This document shows, piece by piece, positions 2,769-29,316 of a stretch of 33,509 nt of DNA. The first letter of the stretch is position 1. Every line of letters begins with the position of its first letter. The notes beneath the pieces were generated by a model. The model had not been told where the DNA came from and made no database searches. It saw only the letters and a program-made list of their open reading frames with translations. Made by a program: the position numbers and the translations under genes. This DNA comes from Desulfobacterales bacterium (GTDB lineage Bacteria > Desulfobacterota > Desulfobacteria > Desulfobacterales > JAFDCJ01): the NCBI GenBank assembly GCA_030066155.1, contig JASJCE010000008.1:1-33509 (forward strand). The letters run 5' to 3'.

Positions 2769-3178
2769 ACACGCCGGCAGTTTTTTTTCTCTTCCTTTGT
2801 TCTATAGCTACTTGCCGATTTGGATTTTGCATTCGGTCAAGAATAATGGTAGTGGATACCCTATAATGGATATCCTTAAGCCAGCAATTTCCACCCGAAA
2901 CCTGTCTACGATCCCGTCAGAAGCGCAGCGGAAGCGGGGACACCTGCCGTCGGCGCTCTCGTACCCAACAATTAGCCGAATCATCAATTAGGGTGGACCA
3001 CAGCCGGGTTTAATGAATCCGCATCTGTACTCGCGGTCGCGACTTTCTGGCATCAGCTGATGCTATCTCTTTGAAACCAGTTGACCGTCAGATCATCTGA
3101 TTCCCATTACAGGTCATCCCGCTATAACGGGATGAGAATTGAAGGTTCTCGAAAATTCATAACGAAAGGAGATTGGCG
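2769..3178 (+). other. Spacer upstream of the first TTT transporter, with a 7-bp dyad
   Basis: There is no credible gene here; a 64-codon frame at 2797-2991 lacks a ribosome site and protein-like composition. CATCCCG (3115-3121) and CGGGATG (3128-3134) form a perfect 7-bp inverted repeat around CTATAA, 45 nt before the tctC start. It has no T-run, so an operator fits better than a terminator. Confidence 0.45.
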
Positions 3179-4171: not shown

Positions 4172-4201
4172 ATCTTCATTCTGACAAAAGGTGATGAAGG
4201 A

Positions 4202-4687: not shown

Positions 4688-4702
4688 CTCTGAAGGCGAT
4701 GT

Positions 4703-6217
4703 ATGCTTGACAATCTCATATACGGATTCGGTGTGGCTTTTACGCCGTTCAATTTGCTGCTCGCTCTGGCCGGTTGCCTGGTCGGCACCGTGATTGGTGT
4801 TCTGCCTGGACTGGGGCCGACAGGAACGATTGCGATATTGCTACCTCTGGTCTTTAGCTTGCCGGCCCCCTCGGCTTTAATCATGCTGGCCGCTGTTTAT
4901 TACGGCGCGATGTACGGCGGATCGACGACATCCATCCTAGTCAATATCCCGGGCGAATCTGCATCGGTGGTCACAACCATAGATGGGCATAGGATGGCGA
5001 TGAAAGGCCGCGCCGGACCGGCACTGGCGATATGTGCCATTGGTTCTTTTATCGCGGGTACCTTCAGCATTGTCATTTTGACATTTATCGGTGAACCGGT
5101 CGCCGGTTTTGCCCTGCGTTTTGGACCGGCCGAATTCTTTTCATTGATGCTATTTGGCTTATCGACGGTCGCCAGCCTGACCGGAAAGTCGGTCGCAAAA
5201 GCGATTATCTCCACCGGACTGGGGTTGATGACGGCCACCATCGGGATCGATCTGGTTTCCGGAGCACCGCGCTACACGTTTGGGAATCCGTTTTTGCTCG
5301 ATGGTATCGATTTTATCGTGGTTGCGATCGGGATGTTTGCCATTTCCGAGGTGGTCATAACGGCCGAAGAGCTCAGATCCGGCAAACGCCAGCAGATCGT
5401 AAAGGCTAAGCGGCTGTGGATATCGATGAAGGAATTTATTTACAGCATCGGGGCCATTATCCGCGGAACCGTTATCGGTTTTTTTGTGGGGATACTTCCG
5501 GGAGCCGGTGCCACGCTGGCGTCCTTTTTGTCCTATGACATCGAAAAACGAGTTGCCAAACACCCTGAAAAATTTGGGCAGGGCGAAATTAAAGGGGTTG
5601 CCAGCCCGGAATCGGCCAACAATGCCGCCAGCGGTGGCGCACTGCTGCCGCTGTTGACCTTGGGGATCCCGGGCGGCGGCGCCACGGCGGTGATGCTGGG
5701 GGCCCTGATGATGCTCGGCATCACCCCGGGACCGCTGTTATTCCAGAAACATCCGGACCTCGTATGGGGATTGATCGCCAGCATGTATCTGGGGAATCTC
5801 GTGCTGGTGGTGCTCAACTGGCCGCTCGTCAATCTTTTTGCCCGTATCATGTACATTCCCGCGCGTTACCTGATGCCGATCGTACTGGTGATTTCAACGG
5901 TCGGGGTCTGGTCTTTGAACCACAGCAAAATGGATCTGGTGCTGATGGGCATCTGCGGTGCGATCGGCTACTACATGCGCAAACACGATTACCCCCTGGC
6001 ACCGGTCCTGCTCGGTCTAATTCTGGGCGGAAGGATGGAACAGTCCTTCCGCCAGGCGTTGATACTATCCCGGGGAGACCCCATGATTTTTTTGCAGAAG
6101 CCCATATCGGTGATTTTGCTGTGTGGGGCACTCCTTTTTTTAGCCCTGCCTTATCTCCTCGAAAAATCCCGCCACCTGCGTCTGGCCAGAGAAACAGCAA
6201 TGGATGATGAGGGCTAA
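4703..6217 (+). CDS. tctA: TTT transporter large membrane subunit TctA, set 1
   Basis: A 504-residue polytopic membrane protein of normal TctA length with about 12 TM segments. Diagnostic motifs are GVLPGLGPTGTIAILLPLVF near residue 40, YYGAMYGGSTTSILVNIPGE around residues 66-85 (the family signature), and the repeat-related GILPGAGATLASFLSY in the second half, reflecting the internal duplication of TctA. It forms the transport channel with TctB and receives substrate from TctC. A stem-loop lies just past the stop codon (GCCGC 6231-6235 with GCGGC 6241-6245). Confidence 0.93.
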   Translation: MLDNLIYGFGVAFTPFNLLLALAGCLVGTVIGVLPGLGPTGTIAILLPLVFSLPAPSALIMLAAVYYGAMYGGSTTSILVNIPGESASVVTTIDGHRMAMKGRAGPALAICAIGSFIAGTFSIVILTFIGEPVAGFALRFGPAEFFSLMLFGLSTVASLTGKSVAKAIISTGLGLMTATIGIDLVSGAPRYTFGNPFLLDGIDFIVVAIGMFAISEVVITAEELRSGKRQQIVKAKRLWISMKEFIYSIGAIIRGTVIGFFVGILPGAGATLASFLSYDIEKRVAKHPEKFGQGEIKGVASPESANNAASGGALLPLLTLGIPGGGATAVMLGALMMLGITPGPLLFQKHPDLVWGLIASMYLGNLVLVVLNWPLVNLFARIMYIPARYLMPIVLVISTVGVWSLNHSKMDLVLMGICGAIGYYMRKHDYPLAPVLLGLILGGRMEQSFRQALILSRGDPMIFLQKPISVILLCGALLFLALPYLLEKSRHLRLARETAMDDEG

Positions 6218-6254
6218 AAGCTGTATCAATGCCGCTTAGGGCGGCAACTTTAGC
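6213..6254 (+). terminator. Possible transcription terminator after tctA set 1
   Basis: GCCGC (6231-6235), loop ttagg, GCGGC (6241-6245) form a hairpin inside a longer imperfect stem GCTAAA (6213-6218) / TTTAGC (6249-6254). The U-tract is weak (aacttta), so intrinsic termination is uncertain. Confidence 0.35.
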
Positions 6255-6780
6255 TAAATCAGCAGATTATATTTGCTTTTCCTTTCCTCGCAGCGTTTCG
6301 ACAACGTCGGGACTGTACTTGAACTTAGCGGAAGCGTGTGTTGGTTCGTCACCTCTTGACTTAAAACCGTCATCTGCCAGAACTAGCAGGGAAAGGACCG
6401 CAATCGGCCAAATATTCTGATCTATTAATTAATTCAGAATCTATACTCTCCTGCAAACGATCTGGATGCAATACAGAATTCCATAATAATCGAAGAAAAA
6501 TCAAATAAATTCAATGGCCCAGCTGCAAATTGGCTATCGGTAAGTAGATAATTCTTGACAACATTGGTGCAGCCTGATACCTGAAGCTTCAGCCATCAAT
6601 TGCTTTTATGGTGGTTTTGAGAATCTTGCCGATTTTTCCGGGGTGCTTCATTGCACACCTGATCCTGCTTCAAGTACGACTAAATAAACGCCGAATTGCT
6701 ATTTTTCTCGTTTATAGAGAGTGACAGAAAGGGGTGCCGTTTAAGGCAATTAACGTTTACTCAAATAAGGAGGAGACATC
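6255..6780 (+). other. Spacer between the two TTT sets
   Basis: About 525 nt without a supportable gene; the one short frame lacks a ribosome site. A perfect -35 hexamer TTGACA (6555-6560) is followed 17 nt later by a poor -10 (TACCTG). A faint heptamer run (ctgatac/ctgaagc) overlaps that place. A strong AAGGAGGAG ribosome site precedes the next ATG at 6781. Confidence 0.4.
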
Positions 6781-7779
6781 ATGAAAAGCAGATTTAGGTT
6801 TGACAACGGCAGCAAAGGCATTTTGACGGCGATTATGGTTTTAGTCGCCGTTTTTTTTGGAATTTCAAATGCGCTTGCCGATTTCCCGGAGCGTCCCATC
6901 ACCCTTATTTGTCCATGGGGTGCCGGCGGGGGCACAGATACGGTGGCGCGTGCTCTGGCCGCTGCCATGGAAAAAGATCTCGGCCAACCTGTCAATGTAG
7001 TCAACCGCACCGGCGGTTCAGGCATTATCGGACATTCGGCATTGGCCAATGCGAAGGCGGACGGATACACTATCGGCACCATTAATGTCGACCTGTCGCA
7101 GCTGGTATGCAAAGGTCTGACAGATCTGAGCTACGACAAGTTTACCCAAATCGCGCTGATCAATGCTGCTCCCGCCGGATTGGAAGTCAATGCCAAATCG
7201 CCTTTTAAATCCGCCCAAGAGCTGTTGGATGCCATCAAAAAGGATCCCCCCCGAACTTACAAAGCATCCGGAACGGGCACCGGAGGCATCTGGCACCTGG
7301 CCTGGGCCGGCTGGCTATATAAATCGGGCGTTGATCCCAACAAAGTTCCATGGGTTCCGACCAAAGGCGAAGCACCTTCTCTGAAAGATTTGGCTTCCGG
7401 ATCGGTCGATGCGGTAACGGCACCGTTGTCCAGCGCACTGCCGTTGATCAAAGCCGGCAAAGTCCGTCCTCTGGCCAATATGGATACCGAACGGTTCGGT
7501 CCGTTGCCGGATGTTCCGACTCTGCAGGAGGCCACCGGTACGGAATGGTCATGCTTTACCTGGCGCATGATAGGCGCTCCTGCCGGTTTACCGGATGATG
7601 TTAAAAGCAGACTGGTGCAGGCCGTCAAGGCAGCCTTTGATAGCGAGGAGTTCACTGCCTTTATGGCAAAAAGAGGTTTCAAAAAAACCTGGAAAGCACC
7701 TGCGGAAGCCAGGGCTTTCCACCAGCAACAAGATCAATCCATATGTGAAGTCATGAAGGCCGTAGGCATGGCAGAGTAA
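6781..7779 (+). CDS. tctC: TTT transporter substrate-binding protein (TctC/Bug family), set 2
   Basis: A 332-residue periplasmic receptor with a very good ribosome site (AAGGAGGAG). The signal peptide ends near GISNALADFPERP. The mature start is the classical Bug arrangement: FPERPITLICPWGAGGGTDT, then NRTGGSGIIGHSALANAKADGYTIG, the two loops that clamp the ligand carboxylate. It is clearly diverged from the set 1 receptor (GGGWD there, GGGTDT here), so the two transporters probably recognise different ligands (inference). It is followed by tctB after 136 nt and tctA further on, and then by the regulator and catabolic genes, which makes it the better candidate for the cognate importer of that pathway. 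Confidence 0.92.
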   Translation: MKSRFRFDNGSKGILTAIMVLVAVFFGISNALADFPERPITLICPWGAGGGTDTVARALAAAMEKDLGQPVNVVNRTGGSGIIGHSALANAKADGYTIGTINVDLSQLVCKGLTDLSYDKFTQIALINAAPAGLEVNAKSPFKSAQELLDAIKKDPPRTYKASGTGTGGIWHLAWAGWLYKSGVDPNKVPWVPTKGEAPSLKDLASGSVDAVTAPLSSALPLIKAGKVRPLANMDTERFGPLPDVPTLQEATGTEWSCFTWRMIGAPAGLPDDVKSRLVQAVKAAFDSEEFTAFMAKRGFKKTWKAPAEARAFHQQQDQSICEVMKAVGMAE

Positions 7780-7915
7780 TGATTTTCGCACATTGAGTAT
7801 GTTTTCAAGAGAATTGATTCTTCTTTAGCTGAAATCGTCGGGTGGCTTGCAAATTCGGAAAATCTTGACCGCAATTTTTGTCAGTTAAAGAGAACGGCAA
7901 ACGGGAGACGCATAG

Positions 7916-8392
7916 ATGCGCATCAACGACGCGATATTGGGAATCATTACAGTGGCAACGTCGATTTTCATAATAGTGGTCGCACGTACGTTTCCCGCAT
8001 TGCCGGGCGTACCATACGGTCCCGGCGTGTTTCCCACCATCATTGCCGGATGCATGATGTTGGGCGGCGTTATCCTTATTTTTAATGGAATCCGGCAACT
8101 GCCTGAAATCGGATGGCTCAAGCTGGACCCATGGGCCAAAGCCCTGCGAAGCTATATAACATTGGGTATAATTTTTACGGCATTATTGTTCTATATTTTA
8201 TTCTCCGACAAACTCGGATTCATCATTACCTGCGTGCTGATTTTATTCCCGTTGCTTCTCTGGACCCGGGGTTCTGAACGCATTCTTTCATCATCGATTA
8301 TCTCGGTTTCCTTTTCATTGATTATCTATCTGGTCTTTGTGAAATTTATGCGGGTACCCCTGCCCAGTGGCTTGCTGCTTGGGATCTTTTGA
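7916..8392 (+). CDS. tctB: TTT transporter small membrane subunit TctB, set 2
   Basis: A 158-residue protein with four predicted membrane helices. The first helix is followed by LPGVPYGPGVFPTIIAGCMM, the TctB loop motif (PGxxPYGPGxFP), and the C-terminal helices include SLIIYLVFVKFMRVPLP, the usual end of the family. GGGAG at about 7903 serves ATG 7916. It lies between tctC and tctA of the same set and provides the small subunit of that transporter. Confidence 0.85.
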   Translation: MRINDAILGIITVATSIFIIVVARTFPALPGVPYGPGVFPTIIAGCMMLGGVILIFNGIRQLPEIGWLKLDPWAKALRSYITLGIIFTALLFYILFSDKLGFIITCVLILFPLLLWTRGSERILSSSIISVSFSLIIYLVFVKFMRVPLPSGLLLGIF

Positions 8393-8437
8393 GATGAGTT
8401 GCCGTCTTAATTCGCAGTACGGTTTAATCAGGCTCCT

Positions 8438-9973
8438 ATGGAAAATATTCTCCCGGCAATAAAGCTCGTTTTCAGCTGGAAAGTTCTGTTGGTAATTATC
8501 GGTTCGTGTGGCTTCGGTCTATTCACCGGGGCCATGCCGGGTATATCCGCCACTGTGGCAGTGGCGCTGCTGGTTCCCGTCACGTTTTACCTTTCACCGG
8601 AGGCAGCTCTGGCGGCAATGGCCACAGCCGTGGCCCTGGCTATTTTCGCCGGCGATATCCCGGGCGCATTGCTGCGTATTCCCGGAGTGCCTTCTTCGGC
8701 AGCTTATGCGGATGAAGCTTACGCCATGACCCGCAAAGGTTTGGGAGAAAAAGCCCTGGGTGTGTCCCTGGTATGCTCCGTGCTCGGAGGCTTGTTAGGA
8801 GCCGTTGCACTCAGCCTCTCAGCGCCGATGTTGGCGGAATTCGCTCTCGAGTTTCAGTACTACGAATATTTTTGGTTGGCTTGTATGGGATTGACTACAG
8901 CAGCATTTGTTTGCGGCGATGAACCGGTAAAAGGCATGATCTCGATTTGTATCGGCCTGCTTCTGTCAATGGTGGGTTTTGATATGATATCCGGAACCCC
9001 TCGCTTCACTTTCGGCATTCTGAGTTTGATGGAGGGAATTCATTTTATCTCGGCCCTGATTGGCGTTTTTGCCGTGGGAGAAGTATGCCGCAATTTGACT
9101 CGCGTCGGCAAAGGTCCGGTTGTTGTCGGGACTGGGGGCGGACATGTTTTCAAAGGCACCGGGCGCATCGTTTGGAAGTATAAATGGAACCTGGCGAGGG
9201 GACCGATCATCGGTACCGTCATCGGCGCGCTGCCGGGGGCAGGCTCTGACATGGCGGCGTGGGTGTCTTATGCCGTTGCCAAAAAATTTTCCAGAGAGCC
9301 GGAGAAGTTTCTGACAGGCCATCCTGAAGGAATCGTCGCAGCCAGTTCATCCAACAACGCCAGTACCTGCGCAACCTGGATCCCTTCGATTGTGTTCGGT
9401 ATTCCAGGGGATTCGGTAACTGCCATTGTGATCGGCGTGCTGTTTCTCAAAGGATTGGAGCCCGGCCCGGCCGTATTTCTCGAGAATGCCCCGCTGGTAT
9501 ACTCAATTTTCGTTTCGTTTTTTATTGCCAATATTATCCTGTTGCCGATGGGATTTTTGGCGATTAAGATTTCCAAACAAATGCTGCGTGTCCCCACGGA
9601 AGTTTTGATGCCGCTGGTGCTGATATTCTGTATTGTCGGCAGTTTTGCAATTAATAACTCCATTATGGGCGTCAGTATAATTTTGGTATTGGGATTCCTG
9701 TCGTTTATAATGCAGGAAAACGGGTTTCCCGTGGCACCGCTGATTCTCGGCATGATCATGGGCGAGCTGCTGGAAGAAAACTTCATGCAGGCAATGATAG
9801 CGGCCGACGGCAATGTTTTGGCGTTTTTCAGCCGTCCCATTGCGGCTTCACTCGGAATTGTAACTATTCTGGTATGGTTTTCACCTCTGCTCAGAATGGT
9901 GTTTGCCCGAATTCGGCAGCAGGTCGGCTGGAAGGCCAAATCGAACCGTAACGAAAATCCATGTGGATCCTGA
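8438..9973 (+). CDS. tctA: TTT transporter large membrane subunit TctA, set 2 (divergent)
   Basis: A 511-residue polytopic membrane protein. GAMPGISATVAVALLVPVTF matches the N-terminal TctA motif, and IGALPGAGSDMAAWVSYAVA matches the duplicated second copy. The central signature is altered: where TctA normally reads YGGSTTAILLNIPGE, this protein has IFAGDIPGALLRIPGVPSSA, keeping only the IPG core. It therefore belongs to a divergent TctA subgroup, which may reflect a different ligand. The regulator gene begins about 36 nt after its stop codon, consistent with one transcription unit. Confidence 0.9.
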   Translation: MENILPAIKLVFSWKVLLVIIGSCGFGLFTGAMPGISATVAVALLVPVTFYLSPEAALAAMATAVALAIFAGDIPGALLRIPGVPSSAAYADEAYAMTRKGLGEKALGVSLVCSVLGGLLGAVALSLSAPMLAEFALEFQYYEYFWLACMGLTTAAFVCGDEPVKGMISICIGLLLSMVGFDMISGTPRFTFGILSLMEGIHFISALIGVFAVGEVCRNLTRVGKGPVVVGTGGGHVFKGTGRIVWKYKWNLARGPIIGTVIGALPGAGSDMAAWVSYAVAKKFSREPEKFLTGHPEGIVAASSSNNASTCATWIPSIVFGIPGDSVTAIVIGVLFLKGLEPGPAVFLENAPLVYSIFVSFFIANIILLPMGFLAIKISKQMLRVPTEVLMPLVLIFCIVGSFAINNSIMGVSIILVLGFLSFIMQENGFPVAPLILGMIMGELLEENFMQAMIAADGNVLAFFSRPIAASLGIVTILVWFSPLLRMVFARIRQQVGWKAKSNRNENPCGS

Positions 9974-17342: not shown

Positions 17343-17489
17343 GTAACATCGTGGTACCTTCAATGGAGCGGTAGCTGAATTCTGACTTTATATTTTGTTT
17401 CCTGCACTTAAGATTCCCGTTCATTTACAAAAACGCTACTGCATCCTTAACTCTTTTCTCAATTATTCCAGCCTTAAAGGAGAGATATC

Positions 17490-17894
17490 ATGTTTGAAGA
17501 CTCTCTAAAACCACCCCAATTTATGATTTTATTAGTTTTATCGATTTTCGCCTTCAGTTCCTTCGCTTATGCAGAAAATACTCTCAGTGAACTTGATAAA
17601 GACAGTTTTGGCGTTGCCATTCAAGGTTACGACGCGGTGGCCTATTTTACCAACAACAAGGCGATCAAAGGCAGCGAAACGTATTCGTATACCTGGAACG
17701 AGGCTGTTTGGCATTTCTCGAGCGCTGAACACCGCGAATTGTTTGCGGCCAATCCAAAGAAATATGTGCCTCACCGCGGCGGATGGTGAGCGGTAAGCAT
17801 GCTGACGGGCCGGTCGGCGCCGGAAGATCCTGAAAATTGGATGATCGTTAACGGTAAGCTCTATTTAGGACGGGCGAAAACAAAAGCAAATTAG
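17490..17894 (+). CDS. YHS-domain protein, probable selenoprotein (in-frame TGA = Sec100)
   Basis: AAAGGAGAG lies 5 nt before ATG 17490. The N-terminus has a Sec signal peptide (hydrophobic 12-28, ending AYAENT). The mature domain FGVAIQGYDAVAYF, YTWNEAVWHFSSAEHRELFA and NPKKYVPHRGGW is a YHS domain, which normally continues G-G-Y-C-A-Y/V. Here the Cys codon is TGA (17787-17789). The frame stays open and family-like afterwards (AVSMLTG, then APEDPENWMIVNGKLYLG) to TAG at 17892, giving 134 residues with position 100 as U. A hairpin whose loop is GGTC lies 22 nt after the TGA (separate entry). I recall that annotation pipelines name a YHS (seleno)protein family, which supports Sec. YHS domains are thought to bind metal. 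The alternative is a nonsense mutation leaving a 99-residue truncated product. Confidence 0.78.
17806..17822 (+). promoter_or_regulatory. Candidate bacterial SECIS hairpin in the YHS gene
   Basis: CGGGCC (17806-17811) pairs with GGC (17816-17818) plus CCG (17820-17822), leaving one bulged G (17819) and a 4-nt loop GGTC (17812-17815). The loop starts 22 nt after the TGA, inside the range for bacterial SECIS elements. From memory the E. coli fdhF SECIS also has a bulged stem and a GGUC loop recognised by SelB; its bulge is on the 5' side, here it is on the 3' side. Confidence 0.6.
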
Positions 17895-18196: not shown

Positions 18197-20086
18197 TTAT
18201 TTCAATCCGGCAACGTGTAGACCATCAACGATCTTTCTGCGATGGTCCGGATTGTAAAACGCTTCCCCATAAAAGTCGACTTCAAAAAACGGCGCTATTT
18301 CCATTACTTTCCGGGCTTCTTTTTGAGCTTGATCGAGATTACCCAAATGGCCATGGACGGCCGCCAGCACGATGTGGGCGCCTAAAAAAGTCGGCCATTT
18401 GGCGGTGCATTTGTTCAGCCAGCTCAAAGCCTCCTCGTACTCGTCCTTAAAAAAATTCGCAATTCCCATATTCATCAATAGGCCGGGCGATATGTAAGGA
18501 TCATATTTCAGGCTGGTATGATACCAGTGCAGGGCCTCACCCGGTTTGCCCGAGTAGAGCAGGACGGGGGCCAGCAATCGATAGGTGCGCCAGTCATTGG
18601 GATTGAGTTCGATGGATCGCTTCATTTCACTGATGGCCAGATCGTATTCTCCTTTGCGCATGTAGGTGTAACCCAGTTGAGCGCGCGCAAAGGCATTTGA
18701 TTCATCCAGAATGATGGCCTTTTCAAATAATTCTTCGGCCTGCTGCATGGCCAGATCGGGAAACTCAGTCCACCCATAGCCGGCGTCCCATCTGCGGACA
18801 TGACCAAGACCCGCATAAGCATCCGAGTAGTTGGGATCGAGCTCAATCGCCTTCTTAAAATATTCTTTCGCTTTGAGGCTTGCATCCCGTTTCCGCTGCA
18901 AGAAATGGTGATAGCCTTTCATCACATAATCGTAGGCTTCTAAATTGTCGGTTGGTTTGGAGAATACACGCTCACGTTGGGTTTGATCGATTTTGAGTGC
19001 TAATTTCCTGACAATATTTTCGATAATCTCATCCTGCAATTTAAAGATATCGGCCGTACTTCGATCGAAGCGGTCAGCCCAGACATGATTGCCGTCAACC
19101 GCATCGATGAGTTGGGTGTTGATCCGAACGCGGTCGGCTGCTTTTTGAATGCTGCCCTCAAGAACATAGTCGACCTTGAGATCTCGACCCACCTCTCGAA
19201 TATCCACTGCTTTTCCTTTATATTTAAATACCGTGTTACTTGCCGCCACCGTCAAATCGCTGAACTTTGATAAATCGGTGATAATGTCGTTGGTGATGCC
19301 GTCGCTGAAATATTCCTGTTCTTTGTCGTCGCTTAAATTGGTGAATGGTAGAACGGCAATCGAGGGTTTTACGGAAGATGACGGTGTCGGCTGTTGCTGA
19401 AGGTGGGTTGTTTCTGTGATAGATCCTTGCCGTTGGAATCCCTGCCAGACATAAAATGCTGCAGCACCAAAAATGAGGATCAATACCGCAGCAACCGCCG
19501 GCCACAATCGCCGTGCACCGGCGGTTTTTTTTTCCATTGCAATGCGGCCGTCAGCTTCAGGATCTGACCAAATTTTGTAGACCTTGATGGGGGTTGCAAT
19601 GTTTTTTACCTGCTGCTCTCCGATATACTCCCCGCCAAATGCCAATTTATTTTGAATCTGATCATAGGCGCTGCCGGATATGCAAATTCCCCCGGCATCT
19701 GCCAGGCTCTCCAATCTTGCGGCGATATTGACCCCATCGCCGTATATGCGTTCTCCGTCGACAATAACGTCGCCCAGATTGACGCCGATGCGAAAAGGCA
19801 TTCGCTGATCCTCGGGTATTCCCGCCTCAAACTGATTCAAACGTTTCTGGATAATCAATGCACATTTGACCGTATCTACGATGCTGGCAAATTCCGCTAG
19901 AAGATTGTCGCCGGGAGAATCGATGACGCGTCCGTGATGCTGTTGAATTTCCGCCTTCATAATGTCATGGCAGCGCTTCAGGGTTTGAACGGTGGTGACA
20001 TCATCCTGGCCCATGAGACGGCTATATCCCTTGGCATCGGCGCTCAAGATGGCTGTCAATTTACGCTTGATTTGCTCTTCGTTCAT
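18197..20086 (-). CDS. Class III adenylate/guanylate cyclase with TolB-like and TPR domains
   Basis: A 629-residue protein. ATG at 20086-20084 follows AAAGGTG. Residues about 8-175 are a class III cyclase catalytic domain: AILSADAKGYSRLM supplies metal-binding D17, SPGDNLLAEF supplies D60, and YGDGVNIAARLESLAD carries the Asn/Arg transition-state pair. A single membrane helix lies near residues 195-215. Next comes a TolB/FlgO-like domain (PSIAVLPFTNLSDDKEQEYF, then the GTP-cyclase-associated VDYVLEGSIQ) and, from about residue 370, several TPRs. This order is common in proteobacterial stand-alone cyclases, where the C-terminal part is a protein-binding sensor. It makes a cyclic nucleotide second messenger; the signal is unknown. 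It is divergent from the qhp locus, and a link is not shown. Confidence 0.9.
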   Translation of the reverse strand: MNEEQIKRKLTAILSADAKGYSRLMGQDDVTTVQTLKRCHDIMKAEIQQHHGRVIDSPGDNLLAEFASIVDTVKCALIIQKRLNQFEAGIPEDQRMPFRIGVNLGDVIVDGERIYGDGVNIAARLESLADAGGICISGSAYDQIQNKLAFGGEYIGEQQVKNIATPIKVYKIWSDPEADGRIAMEKKTAGARRLWPAVAAVLILIFGAAAFYVWQGFQRQGSITETTHLQQQPTPSSSVKPSIAVLPFTNLSDDKEQEYFSDGITNDIITDLSKFSDLTVAASNTVFKYKGKAVDIREVGRDLKVDYVLEGSIQKAADRVRINTQLIDAVDGNHVWADRFDRSTADIFKLQDEIIENIVRKLALKIDQTQRERVFSKPTDNLEAYDYVMKGYHHFLQRKRDASLKAKEYFKKAIELDPNYSDAYAGLGHVRRWDAGYGWTEFPDLAMQQAEELFEKAIILDESNAFARAQLGYTYMRKGEYDLAISEMKRSIELNPNDWRTYRLLAPVLLYSGKPGEALHWYHTSLKYDPYISPGLLMNMGIANFFKDEYEEALSWLNKCTAKWPTFLGAHIVLAAVHGHLGNLDQAQKEARKVMEIAPFFEVDFYGEAFYNPDHRRKIVDGLHVAGLK

Positions 20087-20657: not shown

Positions 20658-22295
20658 ATGAGGGTTGTGAGACTTGGCACCATCACCTTTGTTGCGCTCT
20701 GCGTATTTCTCTTTATGGAGGCCCTGGTTTATGCCAAAACGCCATTCGTGGAGTTCGGGGTTGTCCGGCAAAAATGCTCGGTCTGTCATAAGCTGGATCG
20801 ACAGGGGCGCGTGGAGGTGATCGAGGAGACCCGCAAGACACCGGAGGAATGGAAGGTTGTGGTCGAGCGCATGATCCGCATCAACGGCGGGCCGATCGCC
20901 GACGCAGATTTCAATCCGGTGATCAAGGAGTTAAGCCAACATCTGATTTTGACACCCGAGGAAATGGCGGAAGTGGCCTACATTAACAGCGACGAGAACA
21001 GCCAGTACCGGGAAATACCCAAAAACGAAACCGAAAATCGCATTTTCGCCGCCTGCGTCCGCTGTCACACCTATGGCAAGATCCGCTCCCACCGCAAAAC
21101 CCAGGAGCAATGGGTCGAAAACATGAATCTGCATCTTGGGTATTATCCTACAACTCTGGGTCAAATGCGGGAAATGGATTGGCCCAAAGAAGCCATGGCA
21201 CTGGCGGATGTGCTTGCCAAAGAGCTTCCCATGGACACCCCGCAATGGCAATCCTGGATGCAACAGAGAAAAGATCAGGATCTTTCGGGAAACTGGACGG
21301 TGGCCGGTTTTCAGCCGGGCATGGGGTATTATGAAGGCGCTTACGCATTTAAACCCAATCCCGCAAAAGGGGAAGATGAATACCTGGTTGAAAAAGAGGT
21401 TCGTTATTTGAATGGCGTCGGCCTCAAACTGGGCGGTGAGGCAACGCTGTATGGAGAATATCATTTGCGTTACGCTCTGGCACCGACCCCTCTAACCGGT
21501 CGAATTGAAGGTGTCTTTGATTTGGATGCTGACAACATGGGTTTTGAGGGCAAATGGTGGACGGTCGTGCAGGATACCAATGCCTTCGGCAACGAGGCGT
21601 TTTATAAGGCCGGTGGAGAGCCCCGAGCCTTTGCCCTTTTTCCGCAGGCCTTGAAGAAGAGCGATGGGGGACAGGAACTCGCGTTGATTGGTGCGGATTT
21701 ACCATCCGGTTTGACTGCGGCAGACTTTAAGTTTGCAGATTCCAATGTCAAGGTCATGCAAGTCAAACGCATGGACAACGGTAAACTGATGTTGGATATC
21801 GTTGCCGGCGCCAATGCCGCAAATGGTCCATCCAAACTCAGCGTCAACGGCGTTGCAGGTGATTTGTCTCTGGTTATTTTTGACAAGCTCGACGGGATCA
21901 GAATCCTACCGGCACTGGGACGCGCGCGGGTCAGCTGCGGTGCCGCATATCCGCCGCATGGAGTCCAGTTTGTGGCCCGGGGCGTGAACTACGGTGCGGA
22001 CGGAAAACCGGACACGGCCGATGACTTGATGCTGGAACCGGTGGCGGCGCAGTGGTGGTTGGAAGAGGAAAAGACTCGCGATAACGATGACGATTTAAAG
22101 TATCTGCAGACGTCGGTGCTCAATGGCCTATACACACCGGTTACGACTTACGGGCCGATTGAATCCCGGTTTCAGCGCCGGGAAGGCGTCGGGCTGATCG
22201 CCATCGGCGCGTCGTATACGGACGGTGGACAGGAATTTAAAGCCCGCTCATTGTTGGGCGTAACCGTGCCGGATTTTATTACCCATATAAAATAA
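20658..22295 (+). CDS. qhpA: Quinohemoprotein amine dehydrogenase alpha subunit (dihaem cytochrome)
   Basis: A 545-residue periplasmic subunit with an AAAGGAGG ribosome site. The signal peptide covers about residues 1-26 (MEALVYAKTP at its end). The cytochrome domain carries two haem c motifs, CSVCH (40-44) and CVRCH (133-137), with MRMDWP-type Met ligand candidates nearby. After about residue 200 it changes to beta-rich domains (LSGNWTVAGFQPGMGYYEG onward) as in the alpha subunit of Pseudomonas and Paracoccus QHNDH, whose length is similar. In the enzyme, the two haems pass electrons from the CTQ cofactor of the gamma subunit to an external acceptor. The identification rests on the architecture plus the adjacent qhpD, qhpC and qhpB. 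It is the first gene of the operon; qhpD begins 12 nt later. Confidence 0.93.
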   Translation: MRVVRLGTITFVALCVFLFMEALVYAKTPFVEFGVVRQKCSVCHKLDRQGRVEVIEETRKTPEEWKVVVERMIRINGGPIADADFNPVIKELSQHLILTPEEMAEVAYINSDENSQYREIPKNETENRIFAACVRCHTYGKIRSHRKTQEQWVENMNLHLGYYPTTLGQMREMDWPKEAMALADVLAKELPMDTPQWQSWMQQRKDQDLSGNWTVAGFQPGMGYYEGAYAFKPNPAKGEDEYLVEKEVRYLNGVGLKLGGEATLYGEYHLRYALAPTPLTGRIEGVFDLDADNMGFEGKWWTVVQDTNAFGNEAFYKAGGEPRAFALFPQALKKSDGGQELALIGADLPSGLTAADFKFADSNVKVMQVKRMDNGKLMLDIVAGANAANGPSKLSVNGVAGDLSLVIFDKLDGIRILPALGRARVSCGAAYPPHGVQFVARGVNYGADGKPDTADDLMLEPVAAQWWLEEEKTRDNDDDLKYLQTSVLNGLYTPVTTYGPIESRFQRREGVGLIAIGASYTDGGQEFKARSLLGVTVPDFITHIK

Positions 22296-22307
22296 CGCCA
22301 GGCAGAT

Positions 22308-23747
22308 ATGAGAAATTACCAGGTTGCGGAAACGAAAACGATCCAGGTAGATGGCCAGGACTATCTCTTTCTGGTGGCGGATAAAGCCATCTTCGAGATG
22401 GATCGGTCAACTAGGGCCACGCTTGTTGAACTGGGTCGAAAAAAACCGCTGACACGGCAAGAAATTCTGGCTGGCCTGACGGGAATTCCCGCCGAAGACC
22501 GGGATGAATTTTTTCGAGAACTGCTGAAACGTCGCGTGCTCATTGCGAAAAATGAATCCGTTTCAGGGCATGACAATTCTCAAATCCATCAAGCATCGAT
22601 ACCGCTGAAGACTTTAATCCTTCACCTGACAGATGCCTGCAATCTGCGCTGTGACTATTGCTATCACACCGAATGGTCCGACAAACCTGTGGAAAAAAAG
22701 GTGATGGACACAGCGGCAGCCCATCACGCGGTTGATTTTCTGATTGAGCAATCGGGAGATCTGGGTGAGATTGTGCTGGTCTTTTTCGGCGGAGAGCCCC
22801 TGTTGAATTTTAAGCTGATTCCGGCGGTCGTGGATTATGCTCGCCAAAAGGCCTCCGCCAAGGGCAAAAAAGTCAATTTCGCCGTTACCACCAATGGTAC
22901 CCTTCTGCGAGACGAGATCGTTGAATATCTTCAGCACAACAACATCGGGGTCACGGTGAGTCTGGACGGCTTCGATGATATTCATGATCGGTATCGCCGC
23001 TTTCCGGATGGCAGTCCGTCGTATGCCGTTACGCTCCCGAAGCTCCAACGACTGCTGGACCAATCCAATCACCGTCCGGCGGTTGCCAGGGTGACCCTGG
23101 TCGATAAACCGGATCGGGTGCCACAAATTTTGGATCACTTGCTCAAACTAGGTTTTGCGGAAGTCGGGTTCGCTCCGGTGACAACCGGTCATCCGGATTT
23201 TCAATTGGACGGTCAGGCGATGGACCTACTGTTAAACGAATTTGAAACCCTCGCCGAAAATTTTCTGCAAGCCGCCCGGGAGGGGAAGTTTTTTGGTTTT
23301 TCCAACCTGATCGATCTGCTGGTGTCGCTTCACCAGGGGGAGGTTATGAATTATCCCTGCGGAGCGGGCCTGGGTCTTTTTGCGGTTGATCCCCTGGGGC
23401 GCCTGTATCTCTGCCAGCGGTTCACCGGAATCGATGAGTTTAATATGGGAGACGTATTTGACGGATTCAACCACAACAAGCTTGCGAAATTCAGAGAGGA
23501 AGCGGAAATCAGCAACAAAACGGACTGCAGAAAATGCTGGGTGCGCACCATCTGCACCGGCGGGTGCTATCACGAGGCCTGTGTCAGGGAAGGAAGTCAT
23601 CTCAAACCCAATCTGCACTATTGCGAATGGATCAAGCGCTGGTCTGAAATCGGCCTGGAGGTATACTGCCAGCTTGCCGTGGAACACCCGGAGTACCTGG
23701 AACAACTGTGCCTGTCACGGGGCTATCCGGCAGAACCCGGCCTTTGA
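22308..23747 (+). CDS. qhpD: Radical SAM thioether-crosslinking maturase QhpD
   Basis: A 479-residue radical SAM/SPASM enzyme. An N-terminal domain of about 95 residues (peptide-recognition type) precedes HLTDACNLRCDYCYH with the SAM cluster cysteines C111, C115 and C118, then FFGGEP (160-164). The C-terminal SPASM region supplies C351, C369, C407, C410, C416, C420, C425 and C439 for two auxiliary clusters. QhpD makes the Cys-to-Asp/Glu thioether bonds in the gamma subunit before export. Its position between qhpA and qhpC, 20 nt from the latter, is the canonical order. It is oxygen-sensitive chemistry that suits an anaerobe well. Confidence 0.93.
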   Translation: MRNYQVAETKTIQVDGQDYLFLVADKAIFEMDRSTRATLVELGRKKPLTRQEILAGLTGIPAEDRDEFFRELLKRRVLIAKNESVSGHDNSQIHQASIPLKTLILHLTDACNLRCDYCYHTEWSDKPVEKKVMDTAAAHHAVDFLIEQSGDLGEIVLVFFGGEPLLNFKLIPAVVDYARQKASAKGKKVNFAVTTNGTLLRDEIVEYLQHNNIGVTVSLDGFDDIHDRYRRFPDGSPSYAVTLPKLQRLLDQSNHRPAVARVTLVDKPDRVPQILDHLLKLGFAEVGFAPVTTGHPDFQLDGQAMDLLLNEFETLAENFLQAAREGKFFGFSNLIDLLVSLHQGEVMNYPCGAGLGLFAVDPLGRLYLCQRFTGIDEFNMGDVFDGFNHNKLAKFREEAEISNKTDCRKCWVRTICTGGCYHEACVREGSHLKPNLHYCEWIKRWSEIGLEVYCQLAVEHPEYLEQLCLSRGYPAEPGL

Positions 23748-23767
23748 GAAAACAAAAGGAGGATCAA

Positions 23768-24094
23768 ATGAAAAAGAAAGGGCTCAAAGCCTTGAACAAA
23801 CGCGCCAAAAAACTGGAGGACCAGGATGTATTTGGTATGCAGGAGGTCGACGTGTTGACCGGCCAGCCGATTGGATGCACAACTGTCTTTGATACCGGCT
23901 GGGAGACCAATCCACGTCCGACAACCCCCATGGGAAATTGCGTTTCCAGCGCCAGGGATTTTACGAGCTGCTCCGGCCCGTGCTGGTGGCCGGCCCAGAC
24001 TCCGGACAATATTACCAACTGGCCGGAATTTCAAAATCAATGTCTGGCCGTTGAGAGGGACTGGAGAAATTTGAATTTTGTGGTGAAACGATAA
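23768..24094 (+). CDS. qhpC: Amine dehydrogenase gamma subunit, CTQ-bearing crosslinked peptide
   Basis: A 108-residue precursor. AAAGGAGG 4 nt before ATG 23768 fixes the start. Residues 1 to about 28 (MKKKGLKALNKRAKKLEDQD) are a basic leader of the non-Sec type removed by QhpE. The mature part keeps every crosslink position at the spacing known from the Pseudomonas/Paracoccus gamma subunit: C37-E46 (9 apart), C58-D64 (6), C72-D80 (8), and C68-W74 (6), the pair that becomes cysteine tryptophylquinone within SCSGPCWWPAQTPD. One additional Cys, C92, has no partner in the known scheme. This peptide is the substrate for the radical SAM enzyme, the unknown hydroxylase, the exporter and the protease encoded around it. 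Confidence 0.95.
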   Translation: MKKKGLKALNKRAKKLEDQDVFGMQEVDVLTGQPIGCTTVFDTGWETNPRPTTPMGNCVSSARDFTSCSGPCWWPAQTPDNITNWPEFQNQCLAVERDWRNLNFVVKR

Positions 24095-24108
24095 GAAGGG
24101 AGGCTCAC

Positions 24109-25143
24109 ATGAGGCACCGTCGCAAAAGAATTATCGGCATGCTTGTGGTGGTTAGTTTTTTGATCGGCCTTTCCTCTGCGGTTATGGCCAAAGATTACAT
24201 TTACGTGCCCAGTGTCAATCACCTGCATATCATCGATTGCGACTCGGACACCATTGTGAAAACCATCAGTTTCAACGACTATATCGTGAATGGCATTTCA
24301 TCTCCCGATGGGAAGCGGTATTACATGAATGCCTGGCATTCGGTCTATGCCGTTGATACCCAATCACAGCAGATCGTCGACAATTACCCACTCTGGTCCG
24401 ATCTGAACCGCGTCGTCGTCATGCCCGGGATCGCGGTATCGCCGGACAACAAATTCCTGTATCTGAGTGTTGCGATTACCAAGAAAAAGCTCAACATTCC
24501 GCGGCTGAATGTGCTGCCGCCCCAGCTGGCGGTGTTTGACATCAAAAAGAAGCAGGTTGTCAAAAATTTCGAGATTCCGCCCACTTGCACCGCGCTGGTC
24601 AGCCCTCCCGATGATCGCAACCACGTGATTCTGCTGGCCCAGGATATTTTCAAAATCAATATCAAGAACGGCAAACTCACCAAGATGTTGGGAGTGCTTC
24701 ATCCCGAGAACGGGCGACCCGGTCTGAATGCACTGGCCATCTGGAACAATTGGAGTCCCGGCAAAAACGGGGTTGTCAGCCTTCCGGCATACTCGGCCGA
24801 GGAGTTGTTTTACGTGCAGTTCGACAAGAAGGGTAAGATGAGCATGCTAAAAGCCGAGGAGATTGTTTTCGCTTATTCAAGTATTGTATCACCGGATCGG
24901 AAATATCTTTATGCCGTGATGGATGAGGTCTACAAAATCGATTACCAGACCGGTAAGACATTGGCCATGGATCCACTCGAACGGGGTACCTGCTATTCCG
25001 TGGCCCTGACATCGGACGGGAAAAAGCTCTACGTCGGTCCGGGCGGACCGGATCTGAGCGTTTATGATACGGCAACCATGAAACGTACGGGTATTATCCC
25101 CCTCAAAGGAGACGGGGTGACGATCAGTATGATCAGCAGATAA
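24109..25143 (+). CDS. qhpB: Amine dehydrogenase beta subunit, beta-propeller
   Basis: A 344-residue periplasmic protein with AGGGAGG upstream. Its signal peptide runs to about residue 27 (SFLIGLSSAVMAKDY). The rest is a run of WD/YVTN-like blades: KDYIYVPSVNHLHIIDCDSD, GISSPDGKRYYMNAW, AVSPDNKFLYLSV, IVSPDRKYLYAVMDEVYKID and ALTSDGKKLYVGPG, consistent with the seven-bladed propeller of the QHNDH beta subunit that packs on the gamma subunit and forms part of the amine pocket. It is 14 nt from qhpC. A heptamer-repeat spacer separates it from the maturation genes. Confidence 0.9.
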   Translation: MRHRRKRIIGMLVVVSFLIGLSSAVMAKDYIYVPSVNHLHIIDCDSDTIVKTISFNDYIVNGISSPDGKRYYMNAWHSVYAVDTQSQQIVDNYPLWSDLNRVVVMPGIAVSPDNKFLYLSVAITKKKLNIPRLNVLPPQLAVFDIKKKQVVKNFEIPPTCTALVSPPDDRNHVILLAQDIFKINIKNGKLTKMLGVLHPENGRPGLNALAIWNNWSPGKNGVVSLPAYSAEELFYVQFDKKGKMSMLKAEEIVFAYSSIVSPDRKYLYAVMDEVYKIDYQTGKTLAMDPLERGTCYSVALTSDGKKLYVGPGGPDLSVYDTATMKRTGIIPLKGDGVTISMISR

Positions 25144-25167
25144 ATGAAGTTTCAGATAAGCGCCGCC

Positions 25168-25208
25168 TCTGGCCTGAAAAAACGGCCAGTCTGATCGAGA
25201 AAAGAAAC
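25168..25208. repeat. Dispersed repeat with hairpin, copy 1
   Basis: AAAAAACGGCCAGTCTGATC (25177-25196) recurs exactly at 31388-31407, and both copies are followed closely by aagaaac. In this copy CTGGCC and GGCCAG also pair around tgaaaaaac, giving a hairpin directly downstream of qhpB. Confidence 0.65.
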
Positions 25209-25212
25209 GAAT

Positions 25213-25415
25213 GAACTTCCAACATCGAACATCGAACGTCCAACGCCGAATAATGTATTCTATCAATTTAAATTGAACAATCTATTGCACCTGATTTACT
25301 TCAGAAGTTGTAAAGTTGGAAATTCTGAGGTTCATTTCTTTTTTTAATCGATAGAGCGCAGCGTCATCAATATTGGACGTTCGATGTTGGGCGTTCGATG
25401 TTCGACGTTCAATCT
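25213..25415. repeat. Inverted pair of heptamer-repeat tracts between qhpB and the U32 genes
   Basis: The left arm, 25213-25250, is built of aacttcc/aacatcg/aacgtcc heptamers. The right arm, 25372-25415, is the complementary type (tggacgt/tcgatgt/tgggcgt/tcgacgt), so the two tracts can pair across about 120 nt of AT-rich sequence. It occupies the only large gap inside the qhp locus before qhpF. No ORF lies in it. Confidence 0.75.
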
Positions 25416-25465
25416 GTTCACAGTTCCGTCTACGTGAAGTTTCATAAGAGGTTTATCCAGTCAAA

Positions 25466-26341
25466 ATGGAACTCGGCGTCCACATCAGAGATGTTGATCA
25501 GGCGGCAATGATTTACGATGTCCCCGGGCATCTGGCCGGCCTTTATGGGCAGGAACAGGGCTGGTCGGCTCTGGTACCCCAGGATTCCGTGCGCTTGTAC
25601 GTCGGCGAGGAGTTCTGCGTGCATCGACTGCCGCATCAGGATGAACTGGATGCCTTGCTTCAATTGGCGACAGAGAACCGATGGGAGGCTACGTTTCTAA
25701 CGCCACCGCTCAGCGATCGGGGATTGGAACGGTGTGAGCGGCTGTTTGACTATTTGGAGCGAAACCTTCCCAGAACGGAAGTGGTCGTCAATGATTGGGG
25801 TGTATTATTATTTTTAAAACAGAACTATCCTTCCTTACAGCTCTCCGTCGGTCGGTTGCTGAACAAGGGGTTCAAAGATCCTCGTCTGCCGGATGCAACC
25901 AGCGCCACTCGTTTTTCGGCCGAAGCTGCTGCACTTTTCGACTGCAGCACTTTTGAGTTTGCCGGATTTCAGCAAAAGCTGCTCGATCTTCAGGTAAGCC
26001 GTCTCGAGCGAGACGTGACGCCTTACGAAGACCTCACATTGGAGAGGCCGGCGGGGATGAATGCATCTATCTATTTTCCTTTCGGTTACATTACGACAGG
26101 CAGAATCTGTTGGATTGCATCCTTTAATCAACCTGCCGCGAAAAAGTATTGCATGTCCGATGGATGCCAGCGGACATGTAATCAGATGTCTTTGAGGCTG
26201 AAGCACAGCTCCACGTCTTTGCCCATTTATCAGGCTGGAAATACGGTATTTTACCTTTATCCAGCGGATAAATTGCGCCGCCTGGTTGCGGCGACCAAAC
26301 AAAAAAAGATTCGCCTGATTTATCAGGGTTTCGTTATTTGA
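25466..26341 (+). CDS. U32-family protein, UbiV-like (putative O2-independent hydroxylase partner)
   Basis: A 291-residue cytoplasmic protein with no signal peptide. The TIM-barrel-like body of the U32 'peptidase' family is seen in VVVNDWGVLLFLKQNYPSLQ, as in UbiV (NDW). Cysteines C51, C215, C234 and C238 reproduce the UbiV cluster pattern (one N-terminal Cys, then C, a gap of about 17-19, C-x3-C; from memory C39, C176, C193, C197), with an extra C229. Motifs around them are YFPFGYITTGRICWIASF and CMSDGCQRTCN. UbiU/UbiV, RlhA and TrhP are [4Fe-4S] U32 proteins that hydroxylate ring substrates without O2. The ribosome site is weak (AAGAGG, 15 nt away). It is 4 nt from the next U32 gene. Its function in tryptophan hydroxylation is inference. 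Confidence 0.8.
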   Translation: MELGVHIRDVDQAAMIYDVPGHLAGLYGQEQGWSALVPQDSVRLYVGEEFCVHRLPHQDELDALLQLATENRWEATFLTPPLSDRGLERCERLFDYLERNLPRTEVVVNDWGVLLFLKQNYPSLQLSVGRLLNKGFKDPRLPDATSATRFSAEAAALFDCSTFEFAGFQQKLLDLQVSRLERDVTPYEDLTLERPAGMNASIYFPFGYITTGRICWIASFNQPAAKKYCMSDGCQRTCNQMSLRLKHSSTSLPIYQAGNTVFYLYPADKLRRLVAATKQKKIRLIYQGFVI

Positions 26342-26345
26342 AGCG

Positions 26346-27329
26346 ATGAAGATTACCGCACCGATCAGTTCTGCCAAGGAAGTTGAAATGCTGCTTCACT
26401 ATGGTGCCGACGAACTCTATTGCGGTGTTCGGACTCCGGAGTGGGAGGCGCATTTTGGCGATCATTTATGGATGAATCGCCGAAGCCCGAAAGGTGCGAA
26501 CCTTGGATCGTGGGAAGAAATCCGTGCAGTGGCGGAAGGTGCCCACAAGGCGCAGGTTGCAGTGCACGTGACCCTGAATGCTCCATTCTATACGCAGGCG
26601 GGAATTGACTATTTGCTGAGACTGGCAGAGAAATTGGTCAGCGAGCTTAATATCGACAGCCTCATCGTCAGTGACATCAATTTCTTGATGTTGTTGGCCG
26701 AAAAGAATCTGCCCGTCGACTTTCACCTGAGTAGTTTGGGAACCTGTATCAATTCCTATGCCGTCGATTTTTATCGCTCTTTGGGTATCAACAGAATTAT
26801 CCTGCCGCGGCAAATGACGCTGGCGGAGATAGAAAAAGTAGTCGCAGCCAACGGTCACAACATGGAGTTTGAGGTTTTTGCGGTAAATGACGGCTGTTTT
26901 TATGAAGAAGGCTTCTGCCAGACCACCCATGCGCTTGGCGGTCCTTTTTGTTTAACGGAGTGGCAAATCCAGGCATCTGGAAAACAGATTTCATCGACAG
27001 AGACCAAACAGCGATTCGAGGAGCTGCAGGAATATCTCTGGTATCAAAATAACTGCGGCTCTTCCTTTCAGGACGATGGACTACCCAACGGACCCTGCAG
27101 CCTTTGCTGGTTCGGCTACTTTCGCCAGTGGGGGGTGCAGTCTGTGAAAATTGTGGGGCGTGAAGCTTCTTTCTATCGTAAAATGAGGAGTCTTCAGCTG
27201 GTCAAGACCGTTATGGATGAAGTAGACGGTGATGCGGCCCCCGACGAAATCATCCGGTATGCCCGGAACTTGCGCAATACACCGGAGTACTGCGATAAAG
27301 GGTATATGTGCTATTTTAGGGATTGGTAA
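26346..27329 (+). CDS. U32-family protein, UbiU-like (putative O2-independent hydroxylase)
   Basis: A 327-residue protein. The start MKITAPISSAKEVEMLLHYG-ADELYCGV is the classic U32 opening (G-A-D-E-x-Y-x-G). The signature region reads FEVFAVNDGCFYEEGFCQTT with C184 and C191 seven residues apart, then C202 and the C251/C254 pair, a UbiU-like cluster set (from memory C169, C176, C193, C232). The C-terminal VQSVKIVGREAS is also typical. It forms a compact unit with the UbiV-like gene (4 nt) and with qhpF (3 nt), so it is almost certainly co-expressed with gamma-subunit maturation. UbiU works as a heterodimer with UbiV, and this pair probably does too (inference). Proteolysis, the historical family name, is less likely because qhpE is present. 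Confidence 0.83.
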   Translation: MKITAPISSAKEVEMLLHYGADELYCGVRTPEWEAHFGDHLWMNRRSPKGANLGSWEEIRAVAEGAHKAQVAVHVTLNAPFYTQAGIDYLLRLAEKLVSELNIDSLIVSDINFLMLLAEKNLPVDFHLSSLGTCINSYAVDFYRSLGINRIILPRQMTLAEIEKVVAANGHNMEFEVFAVNDGCFYEEGFCQTTHALGGPFCLTEWQIQASGKQISSTETKQRFEELQEYLWYQNNCGSSFQDDGLPNGPCSLCWFGYFRQWGVQSVKIVGREASFYRKMRSLQLVKTVMDEVDGDAAPDEIIRYARNLRNTPEYCDKGYMCYFRDW

Positions 27330-27332
27330 TCC

Positions 27333-29114
27333 ATGCAAGCTCCTTTTATAGAGCAGATCCGCTATTTGGGCCAATATGTGCGACCCCATAAAAGGGTTCT
27401 GGTCCTTTCATTGGCGCTGAGTATTGTGAGTACAGTATTAGGAATGATCCAGCCGCTTTTCGCTAAAGTACTCATCGATCATGTTTTGCTGGGTCAGAAC
27501 TATACCTTCTTGATGACGCTGCTTGCCGCCGTCATTTTGCTGCTCATCATCGGTTTTCTGATTCGGGTCAGCAATAGCTATATTTACACCCGTTATTCCG
27601 CTAAAGTCCTGTTTCGGATGAGAGAGGATCTTTTTGCGCATTTGCAGAAGGTGCCGCTAGGCTTTCTGTCGAAACGCAAAATCGGGGATATTTATTCCCG
27701 CATCGCCTCGGACATGTCCGACATCCAGAGCCTCGTGACCGATACCCTTCCCGGTTATCTTTTCAATTTTCTGACCTGCTTGATAACCGCCGCGATTTTA
27801 ATTTGGTTGAACTGGAAAATGGCCCTGCTCAGCTTCTGTTTTCTGCCGTTGGCCTTCTATCTGGTGTCCTTGATCAAACCCAGGATTTTAGGGCTTTCGA
27901 AACGAGTCGCCGAAACCAATGCCGACCTGTCCCACTTCCTGTTTGAATCATTGGCCGGCACGCATATCGTGCGGGCCTTTGGTGCCGAAAAATTGGAATC
28001 TCAGAAACTGGAGAAAAAACACGCGGGACTGTTGAAAACGCTGCTGCAATACCAGGTTACCGGCGCTGCTTCACGATCCGTGCCGATGCTCTACACCATT
28101 ATCAACACGGTTGTGGTGTTTGGATACGGCGGCTACCTGGTGATCGAGGGTTCGCTCACCATCGGTAGTTTAGTGGCATTTACGATCTACCAGGGCCGCG
28201 TTTTCGGACCGCTGCAAGGATTGATGGATGGTTTTCTGGCTATGCAGAAATCCAAAGTCGCTCTAAGCCGGGTAAAGGAAATCCTGGATGTTGAGCCCGC
28301 TTTTATCGAAAATGGGAATGTTGTATTGAAAGACGGGCTGTTGAAAGGGGACATTACATTTGACCGGGTCTCTTTTGACTACGAGAGGGAAGAGCCCCTT
28401 TTCCGGCACCTTTCTTTTCATATACCGGCAGGTAAAGTTACGGCACTCGTTGGACCCAGCGGAGTTGGGAAAACTACAATTTGCCATTTGGTGATGCGGT
28501 TGTTTGATCCGGCCGACGGCTATATAAGGCTGGACGGATTCGATCTGAAACAGTTCAAATTGGAATGGCTGAGGAGTCAGATTGCCCTGGTATCCCAGGA
28601 GCCATTTCTCTTTCACAGCACGATTTTGGAGAATATCAGATTTGCAAATCCCGGGGCTGATGATGAAGCGGTGATCGAGGCATCCCGGGCGGCTTGCATC
28701 CATGATTACATCCAAACCTTGCCGGAACGGTATCAAACCGTTGTGGGCGATCGAGGAGCGCGGCTCTCAGGGGGGCAGAAACAGCGAGTTAGTATTGCAC
28801 GAGCCATTTTAATGGACCCCAAAATTCTTATTCTGGACGAAGCCATGGCGTTTTTGGACCAAACCGTCGAGGCGCGTCTAAAACGGACCATTCAAACGCT
28901 AATGGAAGCAAAGACCATTATCGTCATCAGCCACCGGCCATCAACCATTCAGAACGCCGAAAAAATTATCGCGTTAGGCGAAGGCGGGCTGCTGTATGAA
29001 GGACCGGCGACCGGATATTTGAGTGAAGAATCGAAGCGAAGCGGTATTGGCGATGGTGCCCCCATGAGTGGTGATAGAGTTGATCAGCAGTCTTCAGGTG
29101 TCATTACGCATTAA
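27333..29114 (+). CDS. qhpF: ABC exporter for the crosslinked gamma subunit, QhpF-like
   Basis: A 593-residue half-transporter: an exporter-type membrane domain with six TM segments (about residues 15-320), then an ATPase with Walker A GPSGVGKTT (373-381), Q-loop LVSQEPF, signature LSGGQKQR (about 479), Walker B ILILDEA (about 499-505) and H-loop ISHRP (about 533). The D-loop is MAFLD instead of TSALD. It has no N-terminal C39 peptidase domain, consistent with a separate leader protease in the locus. In Paracoccus QhpF moves the crosslinked gamma subunit to the periplasm. It starts 3 nt after the UbiU-like gene. A lipid A/peptide exporter would look alike; the context decides. Confidence 0.88.
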   Translation: MQAPFIEQIRYLGQYVRPHKRVLVLSLALSIVSTVLGMIQPLFAKVLIDHVLLGQNYTFLMTLLAAVILLLIIGFLIRVSNSYIYTRYSAKVLFRMREDLFAHLQKVPLGFLSKRKIGDIYSRIASDMSDIQSLVTDTLPGYLFNFLTCLITAAILIWLNWKMALLSFCFLPLAFYLVSLIKPRILGLSKRVAETNADLSHFLFESLAGTHIVRAFGAEKLESQKLEKKHAGLLKTLLQYQVTGAASRSVPMLYTIINTVVVFGYGGYLVIEGSLTIGSLVAFTIYQGRVFGPLQGLMDGFLAMQKSKVALSRVKEILDVEPAFIENGNVVLKDGLLKGDITFDRVSFDYEREEPLFRHLSFHIPAGKVTALVGPSGVGKTTICHLVMRLFDPADGYIRLDGFDLKQFKLEWLRSQIALVSQEPFLFHSTILENIRFANPGADDEAVIEASRAACIHDYIQTLPERYQTVVGDRGARLSGGQKQRVSIARAILMDPKILILDEAMAFLDQTVEARLKRTIQTLMEAKTIIVISHRPSTIQNAEKIIALGEGGLLYEGPATGYLSEESKRSGIGDGAPMSGDRVDQQSSGVITH

Positions 29115-29116
29115 TT

Positions 29117-29218
29117 GAGGGATTTAGGGATTAAGGAATTGAGGAATTCAAAAATTAAAAATTAGATCGACAGAATACATTCAATCCCTAAATTCCTAAA
29201 TTCGCAATTCCTAAATTA
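29117..29218. repeat. AT-rich heptamer repeat with inverted arms
   Basis: The left arm is gatttag/ggattaa/ggaattg/aggaatt in 7-nt phase. The right arm is aatccct/aaattcc/taaattc/gcaattc/ctaaatt, its complement type. The two face each other across roughly 35 nt. It fills most of the 202-nt gap between qhpF and qhpE, and a single ctgacacctgaaac follows at about 29226. Confidence 0.75.
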
Positions 29219-29316
29219 TTTTCCCTGACACCTGAAACCCGATATCGATTCAAACTACGGCAGAGCCGAACATCTCTGAGCTGGCCATAATTAACAGGCT
29301 CTTATCACAGAAAAAA

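Follow-up and report, generated by a model that had tools for sequence, protein, structure and literature searches.

A very probable YHS-domain selenoprotein gene lying convergent to a class III cyclase gene in a Desulfobacterales bacterium

Does the in-frame TGA of a YHS-domain gene (17490..17894, + strand) in a Desulfobacterales genome end the gene, or is it read as selenocysteine (Sec), and if so, in the service of what function? The gene lies within a 33,509-nt stretch of DNA (the window, meaning the whole stretch that was analysed). Its frame comprises 134 codons with UGA counted as Sec, is preceded by a Shine-Dalgarno-like AAAGGAG (17476..17482, + strand) 7 nt 5′ of the ATG, and contains a single in-frame TGA (codon 100; 17787..17789), after which it continues for 34 codons to a TAG. 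These limits, the TGA and the 34 further codons had been claimed in a first-pass annotation and are present in the sequence as described there; the same annotation anticipated that a standard gene caller would cut the gene at residue 99, a truncation that the selenoprotein call would mend. Residues 1-28 (17490..17573; ending ...SSFAYA and followed by EN) form a probable signal peptide, to judge from their sequence and from a helix at residues 10-27 of the structure model, and the protein is therefore likely to be exported.

With the TGA read through, the protein matched NF041384 YHS_seleno_dom over residues 42-130 at 123 bits (curated cut-off, 70; E 6.8e-36). Pfam YHS (PF04945) scored 19.2 bits (E 0.0012) on the window protein, below its gathering cut-off of 30.3 bits, and matched eight of the nine members of A1 (best, 2.8e-9); on these scores, the window protein is a divergent relative of the Pfam YHS domain. 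A named family of YHS (seleno)proteins, which the first-pass annotation had mentioned, does exist in the selenoprotein literature: the GOS study of 2008 lists it under the name ‘YHS domain protein (OS)’, reviews credit the YHS selenoprotein family to a 2007 study of Olavius algarvensis symbionts, and a 2026 review gives it with NF041384 and the motif GxU. The selenoprotein family is already known, and the pairing with a cyclase gene set out below is the part not found described. The window protein resembles NF041384 in exceeding the curated cut-off, in having its predicted Sec at the GxU position and in its deltaproteobacterial-type host, but differs in carrying GGWU where GGYU is common, in a shorter C-terminus and in belonging to a cyclase-paired subclade, of which no description was found in the literature searched.

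A rival reading takes the TGA for a true stop, be it in a pseudogene or in a functional 99-residue form, or for a read or assembly error. A profile of the region past the Cys was built from 62 relatives and searched against the 974 stop-to-stop six-frame segments of the whole window. The 34 post-TGA codons were the sole clear match (E 1.6e-10; next segment, 0.65), which bears out the claim that family-like sequence goes on 3′ of the TGA and argues against a true stop. What fits a true stop is the C-terminus itself, which falls ~22 residues short of that of most family members, the match spanning positions 2-91 of a 113-position profile, and a search 3′ of the gene's TAG found no remnant of the missing part. 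The YHS protein of L052 is also short at this end, which corresponds to 17834-17894 of the window.

Homologues were sought in 194 genomes of the order plus public species genomes, which yielded 108 usable rows, the window's included, under a motif pattern that permitted several other residues at the Cys/Sec column but not TAA or TAG. The GG[Y/F/W]C column held Cys in 89 rows, TGA in 19 and nothing else (Cys in 89 and TGA in 18 of the 107 rows other than the window's), so that the TGA does occupy the place of the conserved Cys of GGYC, as had been claimed, and Sec100 would stand in for the one Cys that the family never loses. The TGA-bearing rows came mostly from Desulfobacterales-type genomes, a Nitrospirota and another deltaproteobacterium supplying one each, and in the YHS tree Sec and Cys intermingle, with a minimum of five changes, of which well-supported branches require two or more. 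Three YHS copies are present in the window genome: that of the window (TGA), C256 (TGA) and C299 (TGC).

Since nine more genomes of the order, from several genera, have TGA at the same codon, a read error at the window TGA is very unlikely; the closest relatives of the window gene, L052 and L156, also have TGA there, which speaks against a true stop as well. In favour of a true stop or an error, other stops do occur in relatives, namely YHS copies with an in-frame TAA (L051) and TAG (L153), which are possibly decayed genes, and the window genome is a MAG of 6.66 Mb in 543 contigs (87% complete, 5.2% contamination). However, this genome holds the full Sec machinery. Profile matches over cut-offs were found for SelA (617 bits), SelB (390 bits) and SelD (355 bits), and a single tRNA-Sec scored above the Rfam cut-off (75 bits), called by ARAGORN as tRNA-SeC with anticodon tca (TCA). 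All of selA, selB, selC and selD, whose absence the first-pass annotation had named as evidence against Sec, are thus present, and selD is itself of the Sec type, with an in-frame TGA in its CGU motif (...TCGU...). Across the order, selB exceeded the cut-off in seven of ten TGA-bearing genomes, the window's included, and the remaining three are MAGs of 70-82% completeness; as a discriminator, the presence of selB was uninformative, nearly all relatives carrying it. With TGA shared across genera, conserved codons behind it and the machinery in place, a true stop or an error is a very improbable account of the window gene.

Reading of the TGA by a near-cognate tRNA or under a recoded genetic code, in place of SelB and tRNA-Sec, would find some support in the YHS gene of L025 (− strand, about 1489-1950), which has Cys at GGYC but in which an in-frame TGA falls on the codon of a conserved Trp, for which a decayed gene, an error or something else can be suggested. 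Yet TGA goes with Cys homologues and hairpins, and an ordinary TGA stop ends 11 of the 25 window genes, which argues against general TGA reassignment; the probability left to such decoding is close to negligible.

Insertion of Sec at UGA is directed by SelB together with a downstream hairpin. A SECIS-like hairpin (17802..17826, + strand; −10.8 kcal mol−1) is found in the window gene, with its core at 17806-17822, a GGUC loop (GGTC in DNA) at 17812-17815 and a 6-bp stem with one bulged base; the first stem base lies 16 nt and the loop 22 nt past the TGA. The bSECIS model specifies a loop of 3-9 nt, a stem of 4-16 bp, G in the first two loop bases, a spacing of 16-37 nt and an MFE ≤ −7.5 (PMC13188914), and the window hairpin falls within every one of these limits (loop of 4 nt with G first), although its stem departs from the model by the bulged base and the likeness is one of sequence and fold. 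The form and position claimed for this hairpin therefore stood, but taken alone it was weak: synonymous shuffling within the gene gave equal or better folds in 31 of 960 cases, and codon-usage redraws did so in 108 of 960 (P about 0.03-0.11), so that on its own it is weakly better than chance and, against the codon-usage redraws, not significant. Over a longer stretch around the TGA it competes with other folds.

Folded as a single sequence, the SECIS region had z-scores close to zero, and the hairpin was therefore tested at the level of the family. The mean hairpin energy near the codon was −11.9 kcal mol−1 in Sec copies versus −4.4 kcal mol−1 in Cys copies (P value=2.7e-8; Mann-Whitney test), a P value that is too small inasmuch as the family tests count related genes as independent. 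Each of the 19 Sec copies has a better fold than its own synonymous shuffles give on average, and four Sec copies found later pointed in the same direction, three of them weakly (z of −0.09, −0.65, −1.25 and −2.17). Most Sec copies, though not all, reach −7.5 kcal mol−1; such hairpins are carried by the Sec copies and mostly missing from the Cys copies. L052 and L156 share the distance of 22 nt from TGA to loop start, with AGUU as their loop sequence. The weight for the SECIS reading rests on this family comparison, and that of the hairpin alone is modest. The window gene thus very probably encodes a secreted, probably periplasmic NF041384 selenoprotein, in which UGA100 would be decoded as Sec by SelA, SelB, SelC and SelD under the guidance of the hairpin 22 nt 3′ of it.

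What such a protein might do was considered from its conserved residues and predicted fold. The invariant residues of the family are G46, D48, V50, F76, F85, P94, G98, C/U100 and L124; Asp48 is among them, conservation of Cys is confined to position 100, and a search of the family alignment found neither a second invariant Cys nor a CxxU motif. The three Cys ligands that accompany Asp in copper-type YHS/TRASH modules are not conserved in the family, and copper binding would therefore need a different site. In a structure model computed from 63 aligned sequences (mean pLDDT of 83.9; near 97 for residues 41-90), Sec100 is placed at the start of a helix (99-106) directly past the YHS core. A fold search returned C-terminal regions of toluene monooxygenase, an enzyme in which the YHS domain is known (PMC4626032), as a weak match (Z 2.6-3.2); the best Foldseek match, to an unrelated-looking chain, was also weak (E 0.013), and a PDB sequence search with the window protein gave no meaningful match.

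The second gene of interest (18197..20086, − strand) encodes a protein of 629 aa with a single TM stretch, in which Pfam recognizes a class III nucleotide cyclase domain, TPRs and, just below its cut-off, an FlgO-like region. This gene is convergent with the YHS gene, 302 nt from it; the corresponding gap is roughly 16-90 nt in most Sec relatives. A cyclase neighbour was found at 12 of the 19 Sec loci and nine of the 89 Cys loci, in Thermodesulfobacteriota and Alphaproteobacteria, and all pairs are convergent with the exception of L070, which is divergent. The YHS tree places the window gene in a clade of 18 members (support 89/95), every one of which is cyclase-linked (12 Sec and 6 Cys), while a second clade contributes three further cyclase-linked rows, all alphaproteobacterial. 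In a later draw of genomes, a cyclase was present at all five new loci nearest linked rows and at none of the eight nearest unlinked rows; at three of these five the YHS protein was identical to that of earlier loci, and independent replication thus amounts to two of two (L151 and L156). L149 and L153 lay outside what the motif script parsed.

Tree likeness was judged by shared groupings, without a formal cophylogeny test. On this basis the YHS and cyclase trees have in common the groupings window/L052, L035/L083, L080/L111, L034/L057 with L054, L036/L045 and L037/L046/L047, and differ in the inner order of the last of these and in the position of L070. Eight full-length cyclase relatives are encoded in the window genome, among which two adjoin a YHS gene, five fall in a separate clade and one (C137) is an orphan within the linked group. 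This last gene (L134, G000:C137; 315-2201, − strand) is a cyclase/TPR gene that groups with the YHS-linked cyclases and has no YHS neighbour on its contig.

The YHS protein is proposed here to act in the periplasm as the input through which a metal or redox signal reaches the neighbouring cyclase. A precedent comes from Mycobacterium phlei, where an adenylyl cyclase carries a fused YHS domain that makes it copper-activated (PMC4626032). In the open-access literature, which leaves out most subscription journals, this was the only paper found on a YHS domain together with an adenylate cyclase. Both systems pair a YHS module with a class III cyclase, and both have an Asp where the domain begins. 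However, the M. phlei cyclase is one cytosolic protein with Asp and three Cys as ligands (PMC4626032), whereas the window pair consists of two genes, has a presumably exported YHS protein, lacks those Cys and carries its Sec just outside the core. Under the proposal, the exported protein would bind a soft metal (for example, copper) or react with an oxidant through its selenolate, perhaps with the invariant Asp48, and would then report to the product of the convergent gene, in which the single TM stretch would separate the FlgO/TPR part from a class III cyclase domain in the cytoplasm. A disulfide link between Sec and cyclase was considered and dropped, as the cyclase alignment contains no conserved periplasmic Cys.

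Such an input role is a tentative proposal, against which it counts that convergent genes are not co-transcribed and that other Sec copies adjoin msrA or neither gene. Three Sec copies outside the clade of the window gene (L029 and L044, both at 1387-1848, and L109, at 4929-5426) are each followed immediately by msrA or msrA-msrB, a placement suggestive of a link to methionine sulfoxide or peroxide. These copies favour the alternative that the protein receives Sec but works on its own in the periplasm, as a redox enzyme (for example, of peroxide or methionine-sulfoxide chemistry) or metal chaperone, to which the cyclase is a mere neighbour, as do the sole invariant redox residue at the beginning of a helix and the fact that most selenoproteins of known function are oxidoreductases (2008 GOS paper). 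Conversely, a cyclase link that is clade-specific, extends across phyla and shows similar groupings in both trees is seldom seen between mere neighbours, and the absence of a CxxU motif and of a second invariant Cys also speaks against a stand-alone enzyme. We give the stand-alone role not quite an even chance, and it and the cyclase partnership are close in probability.

A fuller version of the cyclase partnership, held with greater reserve, is that of a two-gene envelope unit, in which an exported YHS protein with interchangeable Sec and Cys would act as sensory subunit to a class III membrane cyclase whose TPRs would face the periplasm. Were this so, selenocysteine would serve metal or redox sensing for a second messenger rather than catalysis. 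The clade-wide and partly co-inherited pairing, with its natural Sec and Cys versions, offers a testable signalling hypothesis for an uncharacterised selenoprotein family.

Elsewhere in the window, a quinohemoprotein amine dehydrogenase gene set occupies 20658-30033, its names being taken in part from Pfam matches. It presumably comprises the alpha subunit (20658-22295), a radical SAM protein (22308-23747), a small Cys-rich subunit (23708-24094), a likely beta subunit (24109-25143), an ABC exporter (27333-29114) and an S8 protease (29317-30033). At 3173-9973, the translations alone point to two consecutive transporter sets of the tripartite-tricarboxylate type, each with a binding protein and small and large membrane subunits.
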